Source of the DNA: Terramyces sp. JEL0728
Lineage: Eukaryota; Chytridiomycota; Chytridiomycetes; Rhizophydiales; Terramycetaceae
Direction of reading: 5' to 3'
Assembly (NCBI GenBank): GCA_027603945.1
Contig: JADIIU010000028.1
Location: 62,001-126,000 of the forward strand
Length of the DNA stretch: 64,000 nucleotides
Shown here: positions 1,087-63,725 of the stretch, piece by piece
Numbering within the stretch: position 1 is the stretch's first letter
How the letters are laid out: every line of letters starts with the position of its first letter
Program-made: the position numbers and the translations under genes
Notes under the pieces: generated by a model
Database searches by the model: none
The model's input: the letters and a program-made list of their open reading frames with translations, nothing else
What the model was told of the DNA's origin: nothing

Positions 1087-3837
1087 TATTAACAACAGCA
1101 TTGATCACTTGTACGGCTAGAAGTACACCTTAAATTATTCCGTTTGCGGTAATCAGTAGCATAGTAAGAATCGGGCTTGACAACAGCTTCGCCTTGTCCA
1201 ATGACAACATTCTTGATTGATGACCCAAAGTATGATACCTGATCGTTCAGCTTCCTGGTTGGATGAACAGCTTCTTTATCCACGATTTTGATGAACACTC
1301 TGTCCACCTTTGCTTTCAAAAACTTTTTGGATTCCTTGTCATCGAGGAAAAAGCTGGGTATCGGGATAGTATCTACTCTGTTTACCATGCCTTCGCCGTA
1401 AAGCATATTTGGTCTGGTCATTGAAATAAATGGTGTTTCTGAAAGCACAAGAACACCTGTCGCTCCGGCCAAATAAGCATTTTCTACTTTTTGCACAAAA
1501 TTACAATCCCCTCTTCGAACAACCACCATAGAATGTTTAAGCAAAACACGCTGTTCCAAAGTGTACGATAGACAACCACTTTCCAAGCCATTTACCGACG
1601 ATATTGGTTTCATTTTCGTTAGAAATACCAGATTACCAGTTAAAGTTAATCCATGGTAAAGCAGAGGCCCGATAGCTCCGGGAAGTGCGTATACACTGGT
1701 AATTCTGTTCTTTTGCTTCAATTTCAAAATTGCAGAGAGATACTGATTGCTTGGCGAATATTCCGTCCCTGCCAATGCCCTTAAAGATGTATAAACTTTT
1801 CCGCCGCTTTGCAGTTTAATATGGTTTATAGCTGTAACAACGTATGCTTTTTCATGGCGATCGTATTTTACAGTCATCAAAGCTCCTCGTAATTGATCAA
1901 TTAATATATTGCCAGCATGCTGGGTAAATACCAAATTACCATAACAATTGTGCCACTCTTTTTCTGATTCGCCAATGTAGGTAATCTAATTTATAAGATT
2001 AAATCTTCGTAATAGGTTTAAGACAGAAAATATTATTACTAATCTAACAAAAAAGCTTGGTAGATTAGAATAAAAAAGAGAATTGAAGATACTTTCATAC
2101 ATCACTTCTACAGGATCAATAGGCTGTATAGTTTCCGTCACTCCGTCCTTGTTTATCCCGACAAACGCTTCACACATTAATCTTAGTTCAGGTGGTATAT
2201 TTGGACCTGAATTTAATGGCACTTGACGAATATTCTGGCAAGTTTGTGTAGATTTAGAACCATTTCTGTCCGTAAACTGATACGGCAAGGGGAGAAAATG
2301 TCCTTCTGTTGTAAAAATTGCGTTCGTATCCAATCTGTTTACAAAATTATCTACATTAGGCAAACAGGCACCTGTGTCGAATAAAAGATACAGATACTTT
2401 AATGTTTCGCTTAAAAAGAAGCTTTCCATCCTGGTATCATACGATTGCTTGTCCAGAACATTGGAAAACCCTGAAAACCCGCAGGGCACTCTGGCGTACT
2501 TGTTTAAATCTTCCAAAATCTGTTCTCCTACTTCAAGGTAGTAGTGATTTTGCGTCGCCTGAATAAATATTGGCTTACTTGATACAGCATATAGGTAGAT
2601 TCAACGAATTCAGGCCGGAGCGGGTATGCAGATATGCTGAGACCTTGGCTTTGGAAATTGTATCTCTCCGGAATACAATTAAATCTTTTCCACAGAGAAG
2701 CGTACAGATAATGCGGTCTGATTGCGCTGGCGACATCTCCTGCCAGAACCTGCAAACCCGGAAAGAATGCCGACAGCGAATCTAGCCAGGGTGCTGCTAA
2801 CTTTCCGTTTGCCATTTTTACATTTTTATAAATAAATCCTTCTCCGTCCACAAGATGAGACATAACTCCATTATATGCTTCGTTGTATATCTCTAAATAT
2901 TCGTCATTTCCAAATAATACATACGCTTTAAACAAATATTCATAAAACGAATCAACTCCAGCCCCAATGCCGGCCATGTCATCGACCCATTTATCATCAA
3001 ACAGGTTCATTGTATTTCCCACCAGATTCAGTTTGGATCTTCTCGCCCAAATTTCGTATAATGCCTTGTCAGTATAATCGAACCTTTTCAGCCGCTTTTT
3101 CGTACTTTCCATCCCCCAAAAGCCTACTTAACGTGCCAAACTCTAGCAACAATGTTCTACATGAAATTTCAGATACCCTGCTCCTGCTGTACATGCTTCC
3201 TGGACTTCGTATGGCAAAACGCCAGTTTTCAAATTAACCCTGGGAAATGGCAATCCATATGGGGTATCAAAGGCCGGCATCAATCTATCAGCCAAATCCC
3301 TTGCTAAATACAGCAATTCACTGTTATACCATCCCAAGTAGCAATCTAACTTTTTGTTGGAAGCAAGCAAATGGGCCGAAAGCAATCCTCCTAAAACACG
3401 AATCGTCACTTCAAACACCTGAACTCTGCTATCCAAATCAAAATGAACATTTGAAATGACTTTATGCACAGCATCAGAAAATTCCCTGTTCTTGCCCAGA
3501 ATCTAGATTACAAATCGGGTACTGCAAGTGTATCCAGCGAATCGATTAAGGTTAGCGAAAAGTTTCCAAGCACATCGTTTACGGCCCTTTGGTTAAAAAC
3601 AGTTACCAATTGGACTCGTCAGCGTCTCTTGACCTTCCTTTACAAGTGATTGGATTTAATTCGTCCTCTGGGTAGGCGTTGTTCATATACGACAAATATG
3701 CTTGGTTAGTTTCTGCGTACCGTGGTCAAACATTTCCAATGCTTTATCCCTATGTTAACGGGCAATCACTTTAGGCTTTTGCGATGAGCTTCACTCATGC
3801 ATTGGACAGATATCAGCACGAGAAACCAGCACCACAT
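1087..3837 (-). CDS. EDEM3: EDEM-type GH47 protein with PA domain (EDEM3-like)
   Basis: ER-lumenal GH47 alpha-mannosidase-like protein that trims or recognises N-glycans on misfolded glycoproteins for ER-associated degradation. After a signal peptide (MWCWFLVLISVQC) come GH47 blocks MFDHAY, ELNPITCKGR, NFSLTLIDSLDTLA, FEVTIRVLGGLLSAHLLA, CTAGAGTLLLEFGTLSRLLGD and DSFYEYL. A protease-associated (PA) domain follows (RRGDCNFVQKVENAYLAGATG), which points to EDEM3 rather than EDEM1/2. Seven introns of 19-20 nt are resolved: 3750-3769, 3701-3720, 3587-3606, 3503-3522, 3157-3176, 3065-3083 and 2559-2578. Between about 2090 and 1986 an AT-rich stretch with an in-frame TAG must contain at least one further intron that I could not place. 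The stop at 1087 may be bypassed by another intron, so the C-terminus is uncertain. Confidence 0.9.
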
Positions 3838-58021: not shown

Positions 58022-61000
58022 TTAAATTACTCCAACTTTAGCTGATACTGGAGCCCTGACTCGAACCATTTCCAAAAAGACATGTTCCAATGTCATTCCA
58101 GCAAGAGAAAACTCTTTTAATTCTCTAGTTTCTTTCAACTCTGAAAGTCTGCTAACTAGAACCCCAAGAGAAGTCTTGAAATTCTTTAAATCCACAATTG
58201 CAATATCACCTACCACACTGTCAATTCCAATTTCAACTTTGGGATCATCAGGGAATAGTCTGCTGCGCAAGTAGTCTACAAGGTTTGATTGGGATGTCGC
58301 AAATTCAATTGTTGCCTTGTATCCATTGGCATTTGATTTTGTTAGCTCATATTCAGTTGCGCAACAACGTAAATTGCCCTCAGTCATGATTGCAATTTTA
58401 TCGCAGTAGGATGTTTCGCTGATATAATGGGTTGTCATAATAGTTGTTCTGTTTACATTTAGCAAACGAACTGTATTCCATAACTTTTGTCGCGCCAGTG
58501 GATCTAAACCAGTAGAAGCTTCATCTAGAACAACAAGAGACCGAGGCAGCATGACTGCGATTGCAGCACTAACTTTTCTTTTTGTTCCTCCGGATAAACA
58601 ACCACAGGGAGTATCTTTAAATCGTTCAATACCAAATGCATTCAGCAAATTGTTGATATACTTGTCGGAATTTTCTTTTGGAATCCCGTTCATTGCACAA
58701 AACAAGTACAAATGTTCTGCAACAGACATGTTTGCAATTAGCAAATCATCAAACTGAGGACAGAAGCCAATCTTTTTAATCGCTTGAAGTTTGTTTGACG
58801 CAACGTGAAGCGAATCCATATGAATATGGCCCTCTGTGGGTAGAGCTTGAGCAGTCAACATACTGAGCGTTGTCGTTTTACCACAGCCGTTCGGTCCCAA
58901 GAATGCAAACATTTCATTCTTTTCAATCTTCAAGTTTAGGTTGTTTACTGACACTTTCTTGTTTCTAAAGAACCCAAATATTTTTGTTACTCCATTAAAC
59001 GAAATAAATGCATTATCAGATTGCGGGATCTTTTTGATCAGGATATGCTTTAATTCAAGGCAAACGAATATCAAAAAGTAAGCAATAAGCCAAACGACTA
59101 CATTTGCATACATTGCATCAGTAGAAGGAGGGGAACAGCTTGAAGGTGTCATCGCTACTGATAGTGGCACATAAGGACCTAGATAAAACAAAATATTGAT
59201 AAAAATGTTGTAAGAGTCACAATTCCACTGTTTGATTCCACCGACAACGGAAGCAACGATAAAGATGAGTATCCCAACCAGCCTGATTGCTTGACCGATT
59301 CCTCTTACCATTGTTTTTGGGAAAAGAGTCCCTAGTACAGCAGCAGCAATCGACGGAGCCAGCAAATAGATAAAGGCAACTCCAGCATTGAAATTGTACA
59401 CCGATGGGATAATTGATACAGATAGAATAATAAACGGAGCACTGATAAGTAAATTTCTAAAGATATTTACCAGCCAATAGCTACCAAGAGGAACACCGGC
59501 AGATAGTAGCAAGAATTTGATCTTTTCTCTTGAATCAGCTACATCTTCAGACAAATTCATGATCAAATCAGCGTACAATAGCTGCATTAATACATGGACG
59601 ATCAATACTGGCAAAGTGTTAGTAACGGTTTCGGCATTGATTGAAATATATTCCAAATTTGTGCTTATTGTTGATGGAAATAGACTTTGCAGCGCCAAAA
59701 ATGGAGCTCCAGCGTATCCACCATAGATAGTCAACAAGTAATCCGTTTGATTCATGATGATGTTTCCAATCGATATCGACGATCCGGTTTGATTGATAGG
59801 AACAAATCTGTCTGGATAGGAACTGATTAAACTGTTAACACTGGTTTCCAACACAAACTGACTTGGAAGCAGTCGTTGTAAAAAGTCACCGGCAATTGGA
59901 ATTTTCGTTACAGTGGTTGAATCCACAGCAACAACCTTGATCACTACCCATAAAGCAATAATCAGCAATATTGAAAAAGTCATTCGGAAGACAACTTCCA
60001 CCAGTGAAGAATATAGTCTCTTCAGCTCAAAGTTCAAGTAGAAAATAGTTTTTTCAACAACAGTTGGTTCAACAAACGAAGCCATTTGATCAAGCAAATC
60101 TTTCTGTTCCTGCGGAGAAATAGTAATATCCTTTTCATCTACTAGTTCCTTGTTTGTAAATATTTGCTCAAGTCCGTTTTCTCTAATGCTAAACGATTTC
60201 ATCATTTTCTTTACGGCCGGATCAGACTCGAATTGATCAAGAATCCTTAAATCGTTTGAGCTAATTTGGTATTCTGATATTTCCTTGTTTGATTTTGTAC
60301 AGCTTGTTTGAACATTGCGAGCTTTAAACCAATCGACAAAGTATTGGTTATCAACGTTTGAAGCCTTTTCCACCGAAATGGTGTATCCAGTGTTGTATAT
60401 TTGTTTCAGGAACGAAGAACCGCCAATGCAAACTAGTTGTCCAAGAGTAAGCATTGCTTTGCGATCACAAACAATATCAGCTTCGTCCATGAAGTGTGTA
60501 CAAACCAGAATAGCCCTCCCTTTTTTCTTTTTCATCAAGAAATCCCAAATAACACGCCTGCATCAGTTGCATCTTACCTGTTTTCTGGGTCGACTCCGCT
60601 CGACATTTCATCAAGCACAACTAGTTCAGGATCATTAATAAAAGCTAGAGCAATACCGAGCTTTCTTTTTTGTCCGGCTGACAGTGACATTGATTTAGTA
60701 TTGAGCATATCATCTGGTATCTTCAAATCCTGGACTATTTGGTCAATTCGATTATTAATTTCACTTGCAGCAACACCGCGCATCAAACCAAAGTAGTACA
60801 AGTGTTCTTTGGTTGTGAGCGAATCATACAGAATATCTTGCTGTGAACATACACCCGTTCTAGCTGCAATATCGTACCGTGAATGTTTAGCGTCAAACCC
60901 AAATACGTTGACAGAGCCTTCAGTAGCACTGATAACTCCGCAAAGGATATTGATAAAGGTGCTCTTTCCGGCACCATTATATCCCAGCAATCCAAAGATT

Positions 61001-62364
61001 TCACCTTTGTAAAATTCAAGGTTCAATCCAGTTAGTGCTTTTGAAACCGAGCCTTTATAAACTTTGTGCAGGTTAAGAATTCTTATTTTTTCAGAATCGT
61101 TGCGGTCCTTTTTGACGTTTTCTATCTTTGGCTCAATCCTGTCTCGTTCTTTGACTTGAACTGGTTTTTCAAAGAATTGCGAGATTGGATAGTAAATTGG
61201 TCGCCTTTCATCTTGACTGACTTCTAACCAGTCCAAATAACTACCAATCAAAATCCAGCCAACTGTAGAACATACTGATGTTATGATAAGGGTGTTTACA
61301 GATGGAGCAGTGTAGGGGACTGGGATTGAGCTGAACCCCTTTCCCGCTGGCGAGAATCCAGCAACGTACTGATAAATAGATAGTGCAACTCTAGGATTGA
61401 TGACACAGCACAAGATCAAGACACCATAAGGAAGACTGTCAATCAAATCTTTGGTTAATGCTTGTGAAAGCACTCCAGCAACCAAGTATAAAGTAACGAC
61501 AAGCGTGGCTCCTCTGCCAGTAGGCACAAGTTGAGCACAGATCCATGAAAAGGCAATATACGCAAACGAGCTGCTAAATATCAAGAAAATCAAAGGTCCT
61601 TTCGCGCTGCTATCGCCTCCAAGATCCAAAAACATGTACAAACTGACAATAGAGAAGATGATTGTAATTACCAATGGAGTAAAGAATAATCCAATGTAGT
61701 AACTGGTACGTCGAATTCCGGTGGTAAACAAACCAAATTTGAGCCCTTTTTGCTTATCTTCAAACAAAGCCATGATAATCATTGTGCAGACGCCAAAGAA
61801 AAAGTAGTCTGAATACATGTTAATACTACTAAATATATCCTTCAAGCTAAAGTTTGTGGTTTGGTACATTTCCAGGGTGCTTGCTCCAGACAAGGCTTTA
61901 TCAATCATGTACTTTACATCAGCTAACGAGTTAATATTTGGACTGAATGTACAGTTTGATGCACTAATACACAAGTAGATTTGATTAAAAGGTGAGTTAG
62001 TTACAGTTGTGAGTGTGTATTCATATTTCTGGTTTGGAGCGTCGAATTCCGTAAAATTCAAAAGGACAGACCACGAATCGACGGTGTTGACAAAGCCAGC
62101 CCTGTCAACCACAGACAAGTTGTACAACTGCGCAATGTTTAATCCAAGCGACTGCGAATCTACTTTTACACGCAATGGTATCACAGGCGTAACTGAATGT
62201 GTATCTGGAGCACTAATAGATGCGGAAATGGATTTCACGACAATAAACGGAAGCATAGAGTACAGAAACAGTATAATTACTACTATTCGCAGCTTGCTCT
62301 TGATGAGTTGCCGTGCAACGTTCAATCTAATGATTGCCAATGTTTGCGTTCTCCAAGGAATCAT
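58022..62364 (-). CDS. Full-length ABCA-type ABC transporter
   Basis: 1440 aa lipid or xenobiotic exporter of subfamily A, with TMD1-NBD1-TMD2-NBD2. TM1 (~28-48) is followed by a large extracytosolic loop (~50-195), then TM2-TM6. NBD1: GYNGAGKST (Walker A), MSLSAGQKRKLG (signature), LVVLDEMSSGVDP (Walker B). NBD2: GPNGCGKTTT, CLSGGTKRKV, LVVLDEASTGLDP. NBD1 signature is LSAGQ rather than LSGGQ. One 20-nt intron (60558-60577) interrupts NBD1 just after Walker B. ABCA proteins are absent from most yeasts and moulds but kept in zoosporic lineages and protists, consistent with the placement. Confidence 0.96.
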
Positions 62365-62828
62365 AAAGAATTAAAAAATCTCCGAAGTGATGTCAACCCG
62401 ATTAACCAATCGGATGGGTTGGATTGTTCGGTATATGGATATCTGTCTTTGGTTTATCCATTAATTGCTGATGTCGAGAATAACCATGTACAAGGCATAC
62501 TCATATGTTTCAAGTTTTACGAGAAATTCAGTCAAAAGAGAGCGGCAATTATATGTCTGTGGTTCAGCACCATTATTTCATGCTTCTTTTGATCAAGAGT
62601 GCTAGTTTAATGCGATTAAACGCGTAATCCAACAGAATGGTAATTAACAGTACCTCCAAAAACAGCCTTCCATCAATATAATTGAACGGAAACTCAACTT
62701 GTAATTATCAACAAGAGCCTCTTTATGAAATCCATTCATTATCCCAAGAATAAACTGATTCAGCAATTGTGAATAACTTGAACACGTGACAAGTTGGCAT
62801 AAAAACCGAGTATGAAAATTCTTTCAAC
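62365..62828. other. Divergent promoter region
   Basis: About 465 bp between the ABCA and CBS genes, transcribed outward. A plus-strand frame overlaps the ABCA start but has no protein-like features. A CACGTG E-box occurs near 62784. Confidence 0.5.
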
Positions 62829-63725
62829 ATGTCTACGATTTACGAGGTTGCAAAGTTGAAAAAGACTGTAGTCGATATTGAAGGTAATTTCTTGTTAATT
62901 CCTAGGTAAATCCGGCATTAACTATAGGTACAAGCAACTAACATAGGTACCGAATAACTAATCTAGTCCATACCTCGATCCAAACAGCGCTTGAAATAAT
63001 GAAAACAAACAGTATTACGAAAATCCCAGTCTACGGCCAAGCTGGTCACTTTATCACTTCGTCCGATCCAAAGAAATCTACTTTTAACGACAAACAGTAC
63101 ATTGCGATCATCAATATCCTGGATTTACTAAACAATTTGGATAAAAAGAGTGTGTTTGAGTGTATCGGGTCTTGCTTAGAAAGCCAGTCGTTGTGGGTAA
63201 TCGACGGGTCAGAACCGATAAAGAGTGTAATGGAATTAATGTCGAAATCAGTCCACTCAATCCTAGTCTCAAATGTCGACCTGTACTTTGTAACCCAAAC
63301 GGATATCCTCCGTTATATTACAAAGACAGATGGAAAAGTCAAGGATATAATGAGTAAATCCATTAAACAAATCGAGAATTGCAAAATCAAGGGGTTGATA
63401 AGGTACATGGTTGAAAATTCTGTTCAATCCATTGTATGCGACAACAAGATATTCACTAGTAAAGATATCTTGGAGAATCTCGACATGTTGAATTTTCTTG
63501 AACAAGATACATGCAATATCATTACTAGATCGGCAGTAATCGTACATCCGAATGATTCCATCCTCACCACTTGTTCCAAATGTAATTATATTTGATGTAG
63601 GTTTGGAGAATGGCGTTAATCAAGCTTGGGTTTATGACGAAGGTATGATTGCGGGTGAAAAAGTCAATAACTTGCTTGGCATTTGCACCATGACTGATAT
63701 GATCAAGTTTTATTACTCTCAATAA
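62829..63725 (+). CDS. CBS-domain protein (SDS23/AMPK-gamma-like architecture)
   Basis: 264 aa with about four CBS motifs arranged as two Bateman pairs: HTSIQTALEIMKTNSITKIPV, PIKSVMELMSKSVHSILV with TQTDILRYI, KGLIRYMVENSVQSIVC with TSKDILENL, and NDSILTTCSKC with GICTMTDMIKFY. Such proteins bind adenine nucleotides and regulate kinases or phosphatases (AMPK gamma, SDS23). The first exon (62829-62883) is separated from the rest by 83 nt composed of four abutting intron-like units; a further normal 19-nt intron is at 63582-63600. The spliced length is exactly 265 codons. Precise orthology not assigned. Confidence 0.85.
62884..62966 (+). other. Tandem array of four abutting mini-introns
   Basis: Four consecutive GT...AG units, each of normal intron size with its own branch-like motif: 62884-62905 (22 nt, TTAAT), 62906-62927 (22 nt, TTAAC), 62928-62946 (19 nt, CTAAC) and 62947-62966 (20 nt, CTAAT). 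Each unit's AG directly abuts the next unit's GT. Removing all 83 nt joins DIE to VHTSIQTAL in the correct frame; removing any smaller set breaks the frame or meets stops. Confidence 0.85.

Follow-up and report, generated by a model that had tools for sequence, protein, structure and literature searches.

The window, the whole 64,000-nt stretch of DNA from the chytrid fungus Terramyces sp. JEL0728 analysed here, is located on contig C28 and contains a gene for a CBS-domain protein that starts at 62829 and ends at 63725. The gene is interrupted at two positions, by a compact array of four adjoining GT...AG units and by one ordinary intron. Its features, in window coordinates, are as follows.

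62829 to 62883, forward strand: exon 1 of the CBS-domain gene, 55 nt (18 codons plus 1 nt), assigned by translation and by identity to NCBI HDV01_003934
62884 to 62905, forward strand: putative intron unit 1, 22 nt, GT...TTAAT...AG, matrix score 1.6
62906 to 62927, forward strand: putative intron unit 2, 22 nt, GT...TTAAC...AG, matrix score 3.5
62928 to 62946, forward strand: putative intron unit 3, 19 nt, GT...CTAAC...AG, matrix score 3.3
62947 to 62966, forward strand: putative intron unit 4, 20 nt, GT...CTAAT...AG, matrix score 4.4
62967 to 63581, forward strand: exon 2, with the bulk of the CBS-domain match
63582 to 63600, forward strand: ordinary single intron of 19 nt, called by the length-blind gene model; its removal is required for the 264-residue deposited protein
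63601 to 63725, forward strand: exon 3, terminating with the stop codon

The four units (22 + 22 + 19 + 20 = 83 nt) lie in phase 1, inside codon 19, and abut at three internal AG/GT junctions with 0 bases between units. A YTAAY motif is present in all four and ends 6, 5, 4 and 4 nt before the respective 3' splice site; in the 106 single introns with a TAAY motif the same distance is 4 nt in 54, 5 nt in 35 and 6 nt in eight. The initial annotation had read 62884–62966 as four such units with branch-like motifs at the spacing of single introns, and its coordinates, lengths and motifs proved correct. On both strands of the window, the array is the sole run of at least two adjoining TAAY-bearing units of 18–23 nt. 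A looser matrix scan of the window adds one weak pair (2351–2391, reverse strand), with a total score of 3.5 versus 12.9 for the CBS array. An Rfam scan of the window returned no match. On the reverse strand, the window also contains two long adjoining reading frames at 58022–62370 that look by eye like the halves of an ABC-type transporter.

That all 83 nt are absent from the predicted CBS coding sequence is well supported at the protein level. After removal of the array and of the intron at 63582–63600, the translation is identical at 264 of 264 residues to HDV01_003934 of Terramyces sp. JEL0728, a deposited model that is itself an annotation. A Pfam scan places the array in a CBS gene, as had been proposed, with a match (34.4 bits; cut-off 24) that spans the array junction. 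Only three of the 16 possible subsets of unit removal leave an open frame: all four units, units 1 and 3, and units 2 and 3. When an 86-residue piece is compared with the CBS profile, full removal reaches 20.1 bits and matches without gaps from residue 12 onwards, compared with 17.0 bits for each of the two partial removals and 18.2 bits for exon 2 alone. The genome search matches include no second copy of the gene. In the relative from Boothiomyces, the first residue of the deposited model corresponds to Met30, which lies beyond the array junction, and the model is therefore uninformative on the array. The length-blind model did not call the array as an intron; exon 1 is only 55 nt long.

This gene model scores codon log-odds, allows GT...AG introns of 12–200 nt, takes no account of intron length and is conservative. 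It was applied to the window and to 200 kb of contig C8, together 264 kb of the 15.0-Mb genome. With splice-site matrices, 164 of the 202 intron calls in this sample are 19–22 nt long (22 of 28 in the window alone). The initial annotation had counted about 70 single introns in the window, all of 19–22 nt. The 28 calls of the conservative model fall short of this count, although 70 unit-like motifs with scores above 3 are present on the two strands. Without the matrices, GT...AG yields 85 calls at 19–22 nt, versus 6, 5, 7, 15 and 11 for five decoy dinucleotide pairs. At 24–115 nt it yields 56 calls versus 92, 88, 94, 83 and 92 for the decoys; there is no excess of GT...AG over decoys in this range, and therefore no sign of a longer class of single introns in the 264 kb. 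Introns in this sample thus form a narrow length class near the functional minimum, and a plain intron of 83 nt would fall outside it, as had been argued. The donor reads GTA in 136 of 147 introns, TAAY is found in 106 of 147, and 48 of 164 exons end in AG.

The CBS array is not unique in this genome. The genome-wide search for adjoining units that had been suggested in the initial annotation reveals arrays as a recurrent feature, with runs on C1, on C8, on C91 and on other contigs. The strongest case, stronger than the CBS array in the window, is a five-unit array in a phosphatidylinositol (PI) synthase gene on contig C8. The arrays considered individually are listed below.

C8:174282-174386: five units of 21, 20, 23, 22 and 19 nt, 105 nt, in the PI synthase gene
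C1:242424-242503: four units, 80 nt, exact borders picked by the length-blind model
C37: five units, 106 nt, removal joins 65 and 66 open codons
C56: four units, 85 nt, removal joins 70 and 68 open codons
C91: about nine units, 198 nt, removal joins 39 and 62 open codons
C48: four units, 86 nt, removal joins 64 and 73 open codons
C85: four units, 84 nt, removal joins 56 and 69 open codons
C53: four units, 88 nt, removal joins 69 and 68 open codons

The PI synthase assignment is based on a CDP-OH_P_transf match (65.9 bits). Without all 105 nt the gene reads QFGAVLDMVTDR followed directly by STTACLL, so that the array interrupts a conserved motif between VTDR and STT. The 25-column stretch around this junction is free of gaps in 120 of 120 homologues (best 120 of 2064), and the complete array is, at the protein level, absent from the predicted coding sequence. 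A genome search with PI synthase recovers the array locus strongly, together with one weak relative elsewhere (35% identity). Unit 3 of this array, 23 nt long and with a GTG donor, is weak (score -6.6), and the length-blind model missed the PI synthase array as it missed the CBS array. No Terramyces entry is found among the best 120 of the 2064 PI synthase homologues, the gene itself lying at C8:173997-174797; perhaps the array defeated gene prediction.

The genome-wide pattern, consisting of a branch motif, AG/GTA and a second branch motif, gives 136 matches, 100 of which are among those listed. With 1, 2 and 3 nt inserted between the two motif-bearing half-introns, the number of matches is 19, 22 and 42, respectively. 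Among the 100 listed matches at 0 nt, 32 form 12 runs in which adjacent matches have a unit in common, so that each run contains three units or more; such runs are absent from the matches to the 1-nt and 2-nt patterns and, for the 3-nt pattern, are confined to C106. A possible upstream unit of 17–24 nt was present in 20 of 30 listed 0-nt matches that were read and lacking in ten. All seven matches on C8 were assigned: three are part of the PI synthase array, and the other four are ordinary introns whose preceding coding exon has the motif at its end; with such non-array matches included, 136 is not a count of arrays. The four ordinary introns (C8:58853, 66719, 114196 and 163703) follow coding exons ending in YTAAYN{1,4}AG, of which about 0.55 would be expected per 164 introns. 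A reversed-pattern control was tried as a yardstick and rejected: the 0-nt count lay above it (136 versus 54), but the 1-nt and 2-nt counts fell below it (19 versus 50 and 22 versus 56), so that the control is not neutral and the comparison across spacings is better. This comparison is in turn inflated, because exons often end in AG and some single introns follow a motif-ending exon. The case therefore rests on the runs of at least three units and on the coding tests, not on the figure of 136.

In three of 13 candidates (the C1 four-unit array and two two-unit arrays), the borders called by the length-blind model coincide exactly with those of the array. For the six arrays tested individually (C37, C56, C91, C48, C85 and C53), removal joins at least 56 open codons on each side in five, the exception being C91. 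The same model picked the exact borders of three of the six (C48, C85 and C53); for C37, C56 and C91 it either drew different borders or called no intron. Poor scores were obtained for unit 1 on C85 (-6.8) and for unit 9 on C91 (-8.3); the end of the latter array is therefore uncertain.

Neighbouring units differ greatly in their resemblance to one another. In the CBS array their similarity does not exceed that of introns drawn at random from this genome (p = 0.31, 0.36 and 0.18), and the same is true on C1 and C53. On C37, C48 and C85 neighbouring units are far more alike than random introns, and C91 has a pair of identical units with nearly identical neighbours. The C37 and C56 arrays belong to near-identical copies, with 474 of 480 aligned bases equal and a single 21-nt gap that corresponds to exactly one unit. 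Identical neighbours and the one-unit difference between these copies together indicate that whole introns duplicate in tandem. The initial annotation had noted that the CBS units are not copies of one another, which holds as an observation; as an argument against tandem duplication it is weak in view of C91, C37, C48 and C85 and of the one-unit difference between C37 and C56. The CBS, C1 and C53 units may be old duplicates or separate insertions, and by analogy we favour old duplicates. Near-identical duplicated segments also occur within single contigs, on C3 (3009 of 3027 positions equal) and on C18 (2993 of 3025).

An alternative origin, to which we give only tentative credence, is the repeated insertion of independent introns at AG/GT, in an introner-like manner or by reverse splicing, with splicing then proceeding unit by unit. 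It would account for the CBS, C1 and C53 units, whose similarity is not above that of random introns, and the AG/GT junction would presumably re-form after every insertion. It sits poorly with the identical or near-identical neighbours on C37, C48, C85 and C91 and with near-identical copies that stand one unit apart.

We put at roughly two in three the probability that the 83 nt consist of four complete minimal introns arranged head to tail at AG/GT, separated by zero-length exons, excised unit by unit and derived by tandem duplication. According to this reading, the spliceosome of this fungus seems to rely on intron definition across some 20 nt; each donor would pair with the branch point and acceptor 19–23 nt downstream, and each unit would be excised alone, in any order. 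As every junction is AG/GT, any order of excision, or a skip from one donor to a later acceptor, yields the same mRNA, and extra copies are therefore nearly neutral. An array would grow by duplication of a whole intron; the period equals the intron length, so the mRNA would not lengthen. The duplicated units would then diverge, each retaining its own splice signals; on this view the CBS array is an old and diverged example. Separate excision of each unit is the most likely course, and we infer it from the absence of longer introns and from the diverged arrays that still consist entirely of complete units, the second argument being weakened because the search pattern requires intact internal signals and is blind to how often these decay.

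Removal in a single step, from the first GT to the last AG as one 83-nt intron with the internal AG/GT junctions left as unused fossils of duplication or insertion, would deliver an identical mRNA. Since mature mRNA cannot separate the two routes, single-step removal retains some probability, and we consider it unlikely. A fission yeast intron is reported, in the available excerpt, to span four tandem repeats (PMC4974935), and some internal units of the arrays score poorly, both of which would suit a single step; the failure of GT...AG to exceed decoys at 24–115 nt in the 264 kb argues against it, as does the retention of GT, AG and a branch motif by every unit of the diverged CBS, C1 and C53 arrays, with the reservation that detection favours arrays of this kind. 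Very improbable is the reading in which part of the 83 nt is kept as exon (units 1 and 3 or units 2 and 3 removed) or the parse arose by chance: the frame does stay open for both subsets, but their fit to the CBS profile is poorer, none of the 83 nt is represented in the deposited protein, and 0 of 20,000 83-mers drawn from a first-order Markov model of the array's own dinucleotides contained a run of at least three units.

A variant with minute exons is found in a formin gene on C106. At C106:25000-25420, introns of 20–23 nt alternate with 3-nt exons reading ACC. This triplet accounts for 19 of the 42 matches to the 3-nt pattern, and 16 of these 19 lie on C106. FH2 matches are located at C106:25933-27206, and the ACC-exon series upstream of them therefore falls where a formin would be expected to have its proline-rich region; each ACC exon would contribute to a proline codon. 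The frame is preserved when an intron plus 3 nt is duplicated, as it is when an intron alone is duplicated. On the reverse strand of C35 (112294-112343), matches to the 3-nt and 1-nt patterns share a motif, as would be seen with 1-nt and 3-nt exons; this may be chance.

Taking the arrays together, and on balance, we lean towards regarding them as intron minisatellites in a nuclear genome: each would comprise from two to about nine complete introns, some 20 nt in length and separated by zero-length exons, with units gained and lost by tandem duplication and removed one at a time by a spliceosome that gauges about 20 nt. If so, introns multiply in place at almost no cost, and the C106 formin variant gains one codon per duplicated intron. 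The arrays provide a natural test of strict intron definition, with no exon between adjacent introns, and of the minimum and maximum intron length. They also catch intron multiplication at several stages (identical units, copies that differ by one unit and diverged arrays) and so bear on intron spread. In addition, they may break gene models.

Several known systems share parts of this arrangement. Minimal introns have been described in mikrocytids (16–17 nt), the chlorarachniophyte nucleomorph (18–21 nt) and heterotrich ciliates (15–16 nt), and the available part of that report makes no mention of tandem arrays (PMC10245619). Terramyces resembles these genomes in its narrow length class near 20 nt and differs from them as a fungus with a 15-Mb genome. 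A literature search, with limited coverage of subscription journals, brought up no account of complete minimal introns in exon-free series, and none of Terramyces introns of 20 nt. In fission yeast SPOG_01682 and Cryptococcus CNN00420, introns are reported in the excerpts available to have been gained through short tandem repeats (PMC3629103, PMC4974935, PMC2395259). As described there, the fission yeast case is one intron across the repeats (PMC4974935, PMC3629103), with the remark that further study is needed to establish the true situation (PMC3629103). By these partial accounts, a single intron spans exonic repeats in fission yeast and duplicated introns lie within repeated gene segments in Cryptococcus, whereas in Terramyces the intron alone is the repeat unit and no exon is included.

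In stwintrons, consecutive splicing reactions clear one compound intervening sequence (PMC9024468, as excerpted), and one intron interrupts a splice signal of another. The stwintron reading of the CBS array was tried and rejected: the array parses exactly, end to end, into complete units, and no unit interrupts the splice signal of another, in line with the distinction originally drawn. In the human polyubiquitin gene UBC, according to the accessible text, a tandem repeat has AGGT boundaries that serve as donor or acceptor (dual-specific splice sites; DSS), and the DSS expansion model holds that repeat expansion is tolerated since it can be spliced out (PMC10809524). The CBS array and the arrays tested individually are likewise tandem units bounded by AGGT, as known here from the DNA sequence. 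The UBC units, as that text presents them, are coding sequence and vary in the number included, whereas those of Terramyces are non-coding minimal introns, and most subsets of unit removal in the CBS array lead to stops or frame shifts. Recursive splicing in Drosophila and vertebrates is described, in the portions consulted, as the stepwise removal of one intervening sequence with juxtaposed AG/GT acceptor and donor (PMC5126111, PMC8605326), the ratchet points sitting in long introns and requiring a cryptic exon (PMC8605326). The CBS array shares the juxtaposed AG/GT within one intervening sequence and, as we infer, the stepwise removal. At 83 nt in all it is no long host intron and has no space for a cryptic exon and, unlike in recursive splicing, every segment is in itself a complete intron, about 20 nt long.
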